Assembly: GCA_016177925.1 (NCBI GenBank) | Contig: JACOUH010000301.1 | Span: 1 to 40,250, forward strand | Direction of reading: 5' to 3' | Source: Planctomycetota bacterium | Lineage (GTDB): Bacteria > Planctomycetota > Planctomycetia > Gemmatales > Gemmataceae | DNA length: 40,250 nucleotides | Shown here: in pieces, positions 23,141 through 26,931 of the stretch | How the letters are laid out: the number at the start of each line of letters is the position of its first letter | How positions within the stretch are numbered: the first letter of the stretch is position 1 | Notes under the pieces: model-generated | The model's input: the letters and a program-made list of their open reading frames with translations, nothing else | What the model was told of the DNA's origin: nothing | Database searches by the model: none | Position numbers and translations under genes: made by a program

Positions 23141-24616
23141 TCATGAGGCCTGGCCGGGCTCGGTCTCCTCCTCGGCGTCTTCCTCGGCGGGCCCGGGGGG
23201 TGCCGTTGACTCCAGGCCGTAGAGCTTCAGCTTCTTTCGCACCGTCGCCCGGTTGAGCCCGAGCCACTGGGCCGCCACCCAGCGGTTGTCCTGCAGGCGC
23301 CGCATCACCTCCTCCAGCAGCGCCGGCTCCACAGAGCGGAGCAGCTCATCGTACAGGCCCGACGGAGAGCTGCTGCCGGCGGCACGGATGCGCTCCGCGG
23401 CCCAGCGTCGCACCATGCCGGCCAGCTGTTCGGACGGGTTGGCCAGCAACGGATCACCGCTGAAGCGCGGGAAGTGTTCCGGCCGTAGCGGACCACCGCG
23501 AGCGATGATCGCCGCATGCTCCAGGGCATTGCGCAGCTCGCGGACGTTACCGAACCACGGCAGCGACTGCAGGAAACGGACCGTCTCCGGCAGCAGAGAC
23601 TGCGAGCGGGCCCCGAAGCGAGCCAGGAAATGCTCGGCCAGCAAGGGAATGTCCTCCTTCCGCTCTCGCAAAGGAGGCAGTTCCACCTGGAAGACGTTGA
23701 GGCGGAAGAAGAGGTCGTTGCGGAAGTGGCCCTCGGCGACACGCCGCGCCAGGTCCTGGTTGGTCGCCGACAGGATGCGGAGGTTGAGCGGCTGAGGCTG
23801 GCTGCTGCCGACGGGGAAGACCTCGTTCTGCTCGAGCACGCGCAGGAGCTTGACCTGGACGGGGGGCGGGATGTCGGCGACCTCGTCGAGGAAGACGGTG
23901 CCGCCATCGGCGAGGGCGAGCAGGCCCGGGCGTGACTGGCCGGCGCCGGTGAAGGCGCCTTTGACGTGGCCGAACAGCTCGCTCTCGACAAGGTTGGGGT
24001 TGAGGGCCGCGATGTGGACCGGCAGGAAGGGGCCGTGCCGCCGTTTGCTGTGGCGGTGCAGGGCGCGGGCGACCAGTTCCTTGCCGGTGCCACTCTCGCC
24101 GCTGATCAGCACACAGGCGTCGTGGGCGGCGACGAGAGCGATGCGCTTGAACACGGCCTGGATAGCGGGACTGCGACCAACGAACTCTCCGGGAGCGGCC
24201 TGCTCGTGGCCATCGCCCGGCTCACCGTCAGGACCGAGTTGGTCCGCCTCGGCGGGTTGGCGCTGGAGCGCGCGGCTGACGGCGTCGAGGGCCTGCGACA
24301 GGTCGAACGGCTTGGTGAGGTACTCGAAAGCGCCCCCCTCGACCGCCTTGACCGCCGTGTCGAGGTTGCCAAAGGCGGTGATGACAATGACCGGCACGGC
24401 CGGCAGGCGCTCGCGCAGCAAGTTGAGAGCGGTCAGCCCGTCCATTCCGGGCAGGCGGACGTCGAGGATGATGACGTCCGGGGCCTGGCGCTCGATGACG
24501 GCAAGGGCCTGTTCGGCAGAGGCGGCGACGGTCGCCTTGTGGCCTTCACGGCCCAGGGCGCGGCCGAGCGCCCAGCACACCGCTTCTTCGTCGTCAACAA
24601 TCAGGACGTGTCTCAT
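23141..24616 (-). CDS. Sigma-54-dependent NtrC-family response regulator
   Basis: From MRHVLIVDDEE (24616) the protein has 491 residues. The receiver domain keeps Asp8/Asp9, phospho-acceptor Asp52 in IILDVRLPG and Lys102 in LTKP. The AAA+ domain has FVGRSPAIQAVF, Walker A GESGTGKE, the sigma-54-contacting GAFTGAGQSRPG loop, and LDEVADIPPPVQ. A C-terminal Fis-type helix-turn-helix ends RWVAAQWLGLNRATVRKKLKLYGL. It should activate sigma-54 promoters when phosphorylated. No histidine kinase is adjacent. Upstream in-frame starts (ATG 24622, GTG 24643) are possible. Confidence 0.92.
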   Translation of the reverse strand: MRHVLIVDDEEAVCWALGRALGREGHKATVAASAEQALAVIERQAPDVIILDVRLPGMDGLTALNLLRERLPAVPVIVITAFGNLDTAVKAVEGGAFEYLTKPFDLSQALDAVSRALQRQPAEADQLGPDGEPGDGHEQAAPGEFVGRSPAIQAVFKRIALVAAHDACVLISGESGTGKELVARALHRHSKRRHGPFLPVHIAALNPNLVESELFGHVKGAFTGAGQSRPGLLALADGGTVFLDEVADIPPPVQVKLLRVLEQNEVFPVGSSQPQPLNLRILSATNQDLARRVAEGHFRNDLFFRLNVFQVELPPLRERKEDIPLLAEHFLARFGARSQSLLPETVRFLQSLPWFGNVRELRNALEHAAIIARGGPLRPEHFPRFSGDPLLANPSEQLAGMVRRWAAERIRAAGSSSPSGLYDELLRSVEPALLEEVMRRLQDNRWVAAQWLGLNRATVRKKLKLYGLESTAPPGPAEEDAEEETEPGQAS

Positions 24617-25017
24617 GAGCATGCCGTGAAGGAGTTTGCCCACCGTCGAAGGGCCGCCCCGGCGACCTCGCGAAGCACATTCACCCTCTCCTCAGTTTAC
24701 CACGTCCCTGCAACGGACGGCAGGTCCCTGACTTGGTCCTGTACCCCGACGATTCCACGAGGATGGGACAGGGATTGCGCTTTGTGCAGGAGTCTTTCCT
24801 GGTCGCCCGATAAGCTGCCGCCCCTGGAAGAATCCGCTCGCCAACGCAAGCCGAACCGCAAGCGGGCCTGACCGCGCCTTGCACCTGTCTTGCACTCTCC
24901 CCAGACATCTTGCGTCCTCTCGTGCCCGCCGGGAAAGAGCAAGGGGCGGGTTGAAGACCCGCCCCTCGACGTAAACCCTTGTCCTCTCTCGTCTTCTTCT
25001 GTCCCCTTGTGTCCCAG
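24617..25017. other. Intergenic region, one hairpin only
   Basis: No gene is seen here. The only structure I note is the hairpin at 24942-24966, downstream of the tRNA on the minus strand. Confidence 0.6.
24942..24966 (-). terminator. Hairpin downstream of tRNA-Ile, possible terminator
   Basis: A perfect 10-bp stem (AGGGGCGGGT/ACCCGCCCCT) with a 5-nt loop lies 52 bp past the tRNA 3' end. On the minus strand it is followed by TGCTCTTTCCC, a weak T-rich tract. Confidence 0.4.
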
Positions 25018-25379
25018 TGGGCCGGACAGGACTCGAACCTGTAACCAAGGGATTATGCCTACCACTTCGGCTTTCGCCGCCAGGCGTGCCCCTGTTCGTG
25101 GTCTGGACTGTGCCTTCACCCTGGACGAAACGTCTTTAGGTGCCTCCGTGTCCAGTCTCTACACCTTCCCAGCATCTGGGCTTGGCTCGGCGTTGGCATG
25201 GGCGGACGCGGGCAAGCGTCTCCTGCAGCGTTCGCCGACTTTACGGAGGTACGGCGCCGCAATTTCTCGCGGCGCGACCCGGTGCGTGACGCGCGGCGGG
25301 CCGGGAGAGCACGTCCCGGTTTCAAGTGCCCGCCAGGAGCCACTCCAAGTCCCCTGCTCTGCCGTTGAGCTACCGGCCC
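25018..25379 (-). tRNA. tRNA-Ile(CAU), split by a group I intron
   Basis: The 5' exon (25379-25348, 32 nt) and 3' exon (25057-25018, 40 nt) join to a 72-nt cloverleaf. The acceptor stem is GGGCCGG/CCGGCCC, the D stem GCTC/GAGC, the anticodon stem GGGGA/TCCCT with loop CTCATAA, and the T stem ACAGG/CCTGT with TTCGAGT. The discriminator is A and no CCA is encoded. The ACTCATAATC anticodon loop and TTGGTT variable region match bacterial tRNA-Ile2, whose C34 is modified to lysidine to read AUA. Elongator Met is the alternative for a CAU anticodon; the arm sequences favour Ile. Confidence 0.88.
25058..25347 (-). ncRNA. Group I intron in the tRNA-Ile anticodon loop
   Basis: The 290-nt intron lies between U33 and C34 and ends in G, as group I introns must. 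Pairings visible on the minus strand are: P3 CCTCCGT (25249-25243) with ACGGAGG (25149-25143); P4 TCGGCG (25238-25233) with CGCCGA (25192-25187); P5-like GACGC/GCGTC; P6 CCCAG-ATG-CTGGG (25180-25168); P7 GACTG (25157-25153) with CAGTC (25110-25106); P8 GACG-TTT-CGTC (25134-25124). A GAAA tetraloop hairpin lies in P9. The core AAGGTGTAGAGACT and GGTGAAGGCACAGTCCAG closely resembles the Azoarcus tRNA-Ile intron (subgroup IC3). It has no open frame, so no homing endonuclease. Confidence 0.9.
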
Positions 25380-25497
25380 TCTCTTGAGGCGGAGGGAGCC
25401 AGACGGGAATGGGTTCGCTCCCGCCCGGAGATCGTACGCTAGCACAACCCGACCGCCGCGGCAATACGCCCCGCGACCCCTCTGAACCCGGGAAGCC

Positions 25498-26931
25498 TCA
25501 CTCCATCGGCTCACTATCCAGGACGAGGTTGGGCTCGAGGACGCGCAGGTCCTTCCACGTCCCCTGGCGGAACCGGAGCAGCAGCGCGAAGGTCAGCACC
25601 ACCGAGTAGGCGCTGGCAAAGCCCCACGCCCAGTACAGGCCCCCGCCGCGCGTGCAGGCCAGCCAGACCGGCACCACCAGCACGCCCCACGAGATCGCCA
25701 GCGAGGCGGCGCTGACGAAGCGTGTGTCGCCGGCGCCGCGCAGCGCGAACGAAAACACCACGTTGGTGCTGTCAAACAGCGCATAGATCGCGACGAAGCG
25801 CAACAGCACCGGCGCCAGCGCCGCGACGGCCTCCCCATCGTCGCCGTGCGCCTCGCTCTCGAACAGTTCCACCAACGGGGCGGGCGCCAGCAGATAGAGC
25901 GCCACGGCCGCCGTGGTGAGCAGCAGAGCGACCCGCAGCCCGGTCCACGTCGTCCGCTCCGCCAGGTCGGGACGATCCTCGCCGAGGCGCTGCCCCACCA
26001 GCACGCCGACCGCCTGGCCCAGCCCGAGCACCGGCATGTAGACAAGCAGGTTCAGCGTGAAGGCGATCGTCGTCGCTGCGGCGGCCACTGTGCCCAGCCG
26101 GCCCACGAAGAGCGCGAACAGGGCGAACGCCAACGTCTCCAGGGCCACCACGAATCCATTGGGGACCCCAAATCGCAGTAAACGGCGCAGGAGCGGTCCT
26201 TCGAGTCGCCAGCCGGAGGCGGTCGCGTAACGGGCTCGGTTTTCCGGCCGCAGCATCAGCGCCAGGGCGAGCACCGCTGTCGCGGTACTGCCGCAGACTG
26301 TGGCCCAGCCGGCCCCAGCGATGCCCAGCGCGGCGAAGCCCCAGTGCCCGGAGATCCAGCCGTATGCCAGTACAACGTTGAGCGCTAGCCCCACGGCGTC
26401 GATCAGCAGGATCGTCCCACTCCGACCCAGCCCGGTGAAGAAGCTGCTCGCCGCCGCCGCCACGAGCGTCGGCAGGGCGGCGACGCACAGGACACGGAAG
26501 TACGTTGCCTCCAGCGCCTGCAAGCCCGGCTCGTGGCCAGCCAGCGCGATTAGCGAGTCGGTAACGGGGACAAAGGCCAGAAAGGCGACTCCGCCGGCGC
26601 CGGCCAGGTGGAGGGCCTGCCAGACCGCCGGCCCGACGCGCTGCGGTTGCCCGGCCCCAGTGTACTGGGCGACGAAAGTCGTTGCGTAGTTGACGGTGAA
26701 TTGCAGCAGCGTCATCGGCGTCCAGAAGATCATCGCCGCCGACAGGGACGCCGCCAGTTCGGGGGTGCCGACGCGGCTGAGCAGGACGCGGGCGAGCGTG
26801 AGCTGCAGCGTCAGGAAGCTGTTGCTCAGCACCAGCGGCCAGGCGACGCGCAGCAACTCCCGGGCGCCACCCGGCTCGCGTCCCCCGCCTCGCTCCGGTC
26901 GTGTGATCGGCTCGTCCTGCATGCCGATCAT
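25498..26931 (-). CDS. MATE family efflux transporter
   Basis: The product has 477 residues (start 26931, or 26922 at the second Met) and about twelve hydrophobic segments, the size and layout of MATE transporters, which export cationic drugs or metabolites with Na+ or H+. Family features include ELLRVAWPLVLSNSFLTLQ at the first helix, TPMTLLQFTVNYATTFVAQYTGAG, and LGQAVGVLVGQRLGEDRPDLAER in the second half. The substrate cannot be inferred. It is followed downstream, on the same strand, by the tRNA-Ile gene. Confidence 0.9.
   Translation of the reverse strand: MIGMQDEPITRPERGGGREPGGARELLRVAWPLVLSNSFLTLQLTLARVLLSRVGTPELAASLSAAMIFWTPMTLLQFTVNYATTFVAQYTGAGQPQRVGPAVWQALHLAGAGGVAFLAFVPVTDSLIALAGHEPGLQALEATYFRVLCVAALPTLVAAAASSFFTGLGRSGTILLIDAVGLALNVVLAYGWISGHWGFAALGIAGAGWATVCGSTATAVLALALMLRPENRARYATASGWRLEGPLLRRLLRFGVPNGFVVALETLAFALFALFVGRLGTVAAAATTIAFTLNLLVYMPVLGLGQAVGVLVGQRLGEDRPDLAERTTWTGLRVALLLTTAAVALYLLAPAPLVELFESEAHGDDGEAVAALAPVLLRFVAIYALFDSTNVVFSFALRGAGDTRFVSAASLAISWGVLVVPVWLACTRGGGLYWAWGFASAYSVVLTFALLLRFRQGTWKDLRVLEPNLVLDSEPME

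Follow-up and report, generated by a model that had tools for sequence, protein, structure and literature searches.

Does the minus strand at 25379-25018 carry a tRNA-Ile(CAU) gene that a group I intron interrupts directly ahead of the anticodon, and how unusual would such a gene be? Plain ARAGORN reports no tRNA in the window, the whole stretch of 40,250 bases analysed here. Once 290 nt are removed, the flanking sequences join into the complete cloverleaf that the first-pass annotation had drawn, 72 nt long and with anticodon CAU (ARAGORN). The order along the minus strand is exon 1 (25379-25348), intron (25347-25058, 290 nt), and exon 2 (25057-25018):

25348..25379, minus strand: 5' exon of tRNA-Ile(CAU), 32 nt, positions 1 to 33, ending in C32 U33
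25058..25347, minus strand: group I intron, 290 nt, last base 25058 being the terminal G; boundaries taken from 16 empty sites
25018..25057, minus strand: 3' exon of tRNA-Ile(CAU), C34 to A73, with the anticodon CAU at 25057-25055; CCA not encoded

Very probably, this 290-nt sequence with a group I core splits tRNA-Ile(CAU) at U33|C34, and predicted guanosine-dependent self-splicing would join U33 to C34.

Identity of the host tRNA

The joined exons form a seven-base acceptor stem without mismatch, an anticodon stem GGGGA/UCCCU, and the loop CUCAUAA (ARAGORN). Over its aligned part, the 5' exon is 91-100% identical to 16 uninterrupted genes of relatives. The anticodon CAU by itself is ambiguous, and ARAGORN labels the joined exons Met(cat). 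The host could then be an elongator tRNA-Met(CAU), which would receive no lysidine. The genome's tRNA complement leaves room for such a tRNA, as the 54 tRNA-model matches, with ARAGORN run on the fetched loci, include one CAU tRNA, an odd Met within a tRNA array that is the sole elongator tRNA-Met found. However, all 12 E. coli records listed, among 5650 that match the joined exons, are annotated as tRNA-Ile, and the one inspected has the anticodon CAT (ARAGORN), so the host is taken for tRNA-Ile2. The window's tRNA also contains C4-G69 and C5-G68, which are TilS signals in E. coli, and 37 of 57 Ile-type rows have the same pairs. An elongator tRNA-Met is very unlikely. The cloverleaf with CAU and the nearest annotated relatives uphold tRNA-Ile(CAU), the host proposed in the first-pass annotation.

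A TilS gene is present in the window's genome (176.4 bits against a cut-off of 93.6). AUA is rare; seven large ORFs of the window together contain 181 Ile codons, of which one is AUA. The tRNA gene is flanked by genes for a MatE transporter (25498-26931, minus strand) and a sigma-54 response regulator (23141-24643, minus strand), as assigned with Pfam.

The group I core and the splice junction

The following elements were located in the intron, listed from its 5' end:

25281..25347, minus strand: P1-loop stretch, 67 nt, containing a 7-bp hairpin (25334-25328 / 25301-25295)
25276..25280, minus strand: internal guide GGGUC; G25280-C34 (P10), then G25279.U33, G25278-C32, U25277-A31, and C25276-G30 (P1)
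25254..25275, minus strand: P2, 7 of 7 pairs
25243..25249, minus strand: P3 5' strand, partner 25149-25143, 7 of 7 pairs (R1 match and drawn pairing)
25187..25238, minus strand: P4 (25238-25233 / 25192-25187, 6 of 6 pairs), enclosing P5 and an extended P5a
25163..25186, minus strand: P6 and P6a, with P6 at 25186-25184 / 25165-25163
25153..25157, minus strand: P7 5' strand GACUG, partner CAGUC at 25110-25106, 5 of 5 pairs; helix also in relatives
25143..25149, minus strand: P3 3' strand (drawn pairing)
25117..25142, minus strand: P8, 5 of 5 pairs
25106..25110, minus strand: P7 3' strand (drawn pairing)
25069..25094, minus strand: P9 (25094-25091 / 25084-25081) and P9b (25078-25076 / 25071-25069)

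As drawn, P1, P2, P3, P4, P6, P6a, P7, P8, P9, and P9b pair fully in the window, and P5 pairs at two of three counted positions, in line with the earlier statement that helices P3-P8 can be drawn. In group I introns, the 5' splice site is a U.G pair and the intron ends in G. The window has the core helices P3, P4, P6, P7, and P8 with the P3/P7 pseudoknot, a G as final intron base (G25058), and a 5' exon ending in a U that the guide holds as U.G (U25348 with G25279).

A covariance model, R1, was built from 27 related introns, with spread and size guiding the choice among 116 classified rows and with the window left out. Its seed mixes tRNA-Ile(CAU) and initiator introns and includes four Ile introns of the window's family and the initiator intron of the window's own genome. 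Across the 40,250 bases, R1 yields a single match at 25253-25052 on the minus strand (131.2 bits, E 1.6e-38, the E-value being approximate with models of this type). In the seed, the drawn structure spans P3 to P9 and includes the P3/P7 pseudoknot; 94.9% of its 1060 cells are paired, a share that none of 500 shuffles attained. The structure was drawn on the first row, in itself an advantage over slid versions. Both sides change in 29 of 41 pairs (against a mean of 21.8 in shuffles, none of 500 reaching 29), or 203 against 63 when counted by cells. The weakest measure, further pair types, gave 71 against 63.1, with 9 of 500 shuffles as high.

Rfam returned no Intron_gpI (RF00028) match at the gathering score across the window, none up to E 10 in 24700-25700, and none at the window's intron when the whole genome was searched. 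The genome search gave two other places only, at C252 (36.7 bits) and C154 (28.6 bits), both below the cut-off of 50. None of seven other U33|C34 tRNA-Ile introns tried reached this cut-off, while two of three introns after CAU and the one tRNA-Leu intron tried did. We therefore read the non-match as a limit of Rfam's model; the search is a library test and not a defining trait of group I introns. The covariance search that the first-pass annotation had proposed thus gave nothing with Intron_gpI at any threshold tried but a strong match with R1, and its assignment to group I stands on the R1 score and the core helices. Elsewhere in the genome, the weak group I match at C154:931-1156 (L002; 14.8 bits with R1) lies beside coding-like sequence.

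The junction is located by comparison with relatives. The exons abut exactly at U33|C34 in 16 of 32 fetched loci, which represent empty sites, and the terminal G of the intron accords with this position. In an alignment of 51 Ile-type introns, a recurrent G-G-G-U precedes P2 and reads across the junction, with U facing A31, G facing C32, G wobbling with U33, and G facing C34. A guide chosen by eye, GGCUCC near the 5' splice site, was dropped because the alignment puts the conserved GGGU further in. The 67-nt stretch within the loop of P1 separates the 5' splice site from the guide; a long stretch of this kind is common among Ile-type relatives and absent from Opitutia introns. P10 of the window consists of the single pair G25280-C34, and the guide helix continues through A35 and U36 in 14 of 56 Ile-type and 30 of 54 initiator rows.

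Initiator tRNAs have G as exon base 31, and their introns have the guide G-G-G-C. This relationship was counted blindly by taking the final GGG of a fixed segment ahead of P4 while ignoring base 31, with the window row included; 9 of 116 rows lacked the anchor or a GGG (4 of 57 Ile-type, 5 of 59 initiator). The guide base was U in 38, A in 9, and C in 2 of the A31 rows, C in all four Ile-type G31 rows, and C in 41, A in 13, and U in none of the initiator G31 rows. It was non-pairing in 11 of 49 A31 rows and 13 of 54 initiator rows. A pairing-maximising scan, biased to pairing by design, gave A31-U in all 52 A31 rows and G31-C in all four Ile-type G31 rows and in 52 of 54 initiator rows. At the level of the aligned sequences, the guide base covaries with exon base 31 across relatives.

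Splice sites at other bases would follow from a different drawing. With introns allowed, ARAGORN makes the locus a tRNA-Pro(UGG) with a 290-nt intron, whose 5' exon would end in G and whose intron would end in U. This drawing was rejected because such ends break the U.G and terminal-G rules. The sixteen empty sites, the guide pairing, and the covariation all favour U33|C34, and ARAGORN itself draws the relative in P. cerasi as ggact-intron-cataa. Splice sites elsewhere, as in the tRNA-Pro(UGG), are exceedingly improbable, and the U33|C34 junction of the first-pass annotation is borne out.

Predicted splicing and the possible dependence of the genome on it

From the exons, core helices, guide, and guide-exon covariation, all of which are seen directly, we infer splicing itself. 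In the proposed mechanism, a guanosine cofactor bound in P7 would attack after U33, which the guide GGGUC would hold at the 5' splice site as a U.G wobble. The freed U33 would attack after the terminal G25058 and join C34. TilS would then convert C34 to lysidine, allowing the tRNA to read AUA and to be charged with isoleucine. Splicing would thus be required before tRNA-Ile(CAU) could read AUA codons. For lysidine biology, such genes would provide natural examples of a base that, with splicing as predicted, serves at a splice site before it is modified.

The window's assembly comprises 7.35 Mb in 484 contigs and is 82.8% complete. Within it, neither the tRNA model nor ARAGORN finds an uninterrupted tRNA-Ile(CAU), and the pattern GACTCATAATC, with one mismatch allowed, finds none either. 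The first-pass annotation had held that an uninterrupted second gene would speak against its reading, and this 82.8% complete assembly yields no such gene. Both tRNA-Ile(CAU) (L003) and the initiator tRNA (L001) are seen in interrupted form only, each at U33|C34. The initiator intron is a group I intron of 281 nt (C252, L001 positions 1418-1772). Clusters of nine (C170:269-1164), four (C172:10384-10701), and six tRNA genes (C393:17508-18069), several of them weakly scoring, resemble mobile tRNA arrays, and a tRNA-SeC lies at C322.

Since the assembly is 82.8% complete, a second, intact gene could be missing. The window's tRNA gene could accordingly be a dead copy holding a decayed intron, while an intact tRNA-Ile(CAU) lies in the 17% of the genome absent from the assembly. 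The draft state of the genome with its 484 contigs, an apparently eroded copy in one relative (G006, L230), and the long branch of the window's intron (see below) are compatible with a dead copy. However, the helices, guide, and cloverleaf stems of the window are intact, and the second copy was not found in the genome. A dead copy is highly improbable; the window's intron is most likely a resident element kept for splicing well. In the eroded relative (G006:C45:14783-14955), an intron stands ahead of CATAA and the 3' half of the tRNA looks eroded.

Pseudomonas cerasi appears to offer the best indirect case for splicing in the cell. When its complete chromosome (6.3 Mb) was queried with the exons of the species itself, six places scored at E up to 0.1. 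Two of these are the exons of the interrupted gene; the others are a truncated copy, a tRNA-Thr, an elongator-like tRNA-Met, and a 30-nt fragment not recognised as a tRNA by ARAGORN. The interrupted gene is the sole intact tRNA-Ile(CAU) found, and its intron occupies the same position as in the window. Five genomes were searched, and P. cerasi is the settled one; the best contiguous matches in the other four are tRNA-Lys (twice), tRNA-Thr, and tRNA-Arg. A CTCATAA pattern was discarded for P. cerasi as too unspecific. At NZ_LT222319.1 561455-561895 (L085 / L238), a native-looking tRNA-Ile(CAU) ends after position 58, just upstream of the intron-bearing tRNA-Ile(CAU).

Distribution, history, and known relatives

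A pattern scan of the genomes of 84,980 species gave at least 119 loci. The scan selects for the U33|C34 position because it demands GCAT[AG]A at the 3' end. Exon reconstruction assigned at least 52 loci to the Ile type and at least 56 to initiator tRNAs, with 11 of 119 lacking a usable 5' exon. Among the loci listed, the Ile-type introns belong to Pseudomonadota (at least 23), Planctomycetota (at least 14), Verrucomicrobiota (at least 9), Chloroflexota (at least 2), Acidobacteriota (at least 2), and Bacillota (at least 1), the phyla being those given by record titles, mostly of metagenome bins. The U33|C34 position is not unusual, as Ile-type introns occur there in at least six bacterial phyla. 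The rarity that the first-pass annotation had implied is not supported, given these numbers and the Ile2 introns already in print in the accessible text of PMC8450103. In two further loci (L134 of Propionivibrio and L114 of Polynucleobacter), the insert starts with CATAA after the 5' exon, and that of L134 continues as a second 3' half of an anticodon arm, like a duplication.

In the window's family, R1 finds such introns in 33 of 95 genomes, with 39 matches. Inspection of the 3' exon by eye in 30 fetched loci identified 6 tRNA-Ile(CAU), 4 initiator, and 17 tRNA-Leu(UAA)-like genes; one of the remaining loci is eroded, one lies at a contig end, and one is another tRNA. The window holds the seventh tRNA-Ile(CAU) intron of its family beside the six among these loci. 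Three genomes of the window's class carry tRNA-Ile(CAU) introns after CAU, the Azoarcus position (L030-L032). The introns inspected lie at 33/34, 34/35, or 36/37, the first being the position for which the scan selects.

The history of these introns was approached with two trees. The first was computed from 119 intron cores with guide and exons cut off, two long cores being left out, and the second from 110 rows after nine rows (long branches, other hosts) were removed. Ile and initiator labels change five times each on the first tree (shuffles average about 39.5, and none of 500 is as low), and three label changes occur on the second. These few changes suggest that the introns mostly stay with their tRNA, even between phyla. 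In the first tree, four Ile-type introns whose tRNA has G31 fall inside the branch of all 58 initiator rows (95/90), as though transfer had worked into a target that matched beforehand. The window's intron has a long branch and joins nine Opitutia introns (97/96). Its placement among 15 planctomycete Ile introns (p-AU 0.327) or among the initiator introns (p-AU 0.448) was not rejected, so no donor is claimed, and naming one from the tree was given up. The phylogeny suggested by the first-pass annotation hence delivered labels that mostly cohere, but the window's own intron was not placeable. Tentatively, these introns may represent one old ribozyme lineage specialised on CAU loops, although this scenario is rather doubtful. 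Its guide would read ACU|CAU or GCU|CAU at U33|C34 in tRNA-Ile(CAU) and initiator tRNA, with few moves made by one guide-base change matching base 31. AUA decoding or translation start in the hosts would then hang on splicing, a possible control point. The way introns pass from one tRNA gene to another becomes a testable question. The two hosts have different bases at exon position 31, and the guide follows the difference.

The Azoarcus tRNA-Ile(CAU) intron has a group I core and a very short guide pairing, and it shares these features and its host tRNA with the window's intron. The Azoarcus triplet in vivo is the anticodon CAU (PMC6274277, accessible text). That intron therefore follows the anticodon, with CAU as its 5' tag, whereas the window's intron precedes it and CAU lies in the 3' exon. 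The Azoarcus position given in the first-pass annotation agrees with this triplet.

According to the accessible text of PMC8450103, group I introns hide the initiator or Ile2 tRNA in 36 genomes, and tRNA-Ile2 introns occur in Acidovorax and Burkholderia. These have the same host tRNA as the window, which belongs to another phylum. The insertion position is not given in that text; the Comamonadaceae and Burkholderiaceae introns of the scan are at U33|C34, as the scan pattern requires. No statement of a U33|C34 intron in tRNA-Ile was seen in the literature searched, a weak negative given thin coverage of subscription papers. The window's intron is a new example of a widespread kind, one that Rfam tends to miss. 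This suggests that group I introns in anticodon loops are largely invisible to the usual RNA library and plain tRNA finders, so genomes can seem to be without tRNA-Ile(CAU) or initiator tRNA.

tRNA-Leu(UAA) introns, which R1 also finds in the window's family (L011, 126.9 bits), differ in tRNA and position (U34|A35). Cyanobacterial initiator introns, at least nine in the scan, are at U33|C34 like the window's, the position for which the scan selects, but their host initiator tRNA has exon base G31, unlike the window's. Their position may well be in print already. Some cyanobacterial tRNA-fMet introns carry I-Ssp6803I (PMC1995217, PMC8450103; accessible texts), which in the Synechocystis tRNA-fMet intron is an ORF of 150 codons (PMC1995217, accessible text). 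Seventeen of 59 initiator introns measure 638-935 nt and contain an ORF of at least 125 codons; the one such ORF tested matches I-Ssp6803I (PDB 2ost, E 9.5e-53). The window's whole intron is 290 nt and thus has no room for the endonuclease gene found in some relatives. A 642-nt Ile intron from Acidobacteria (L077) contains an opposite-strand ORF of 138 codons with cysteine pairs, possibly an HNH-type endonuclease as judged by eye.
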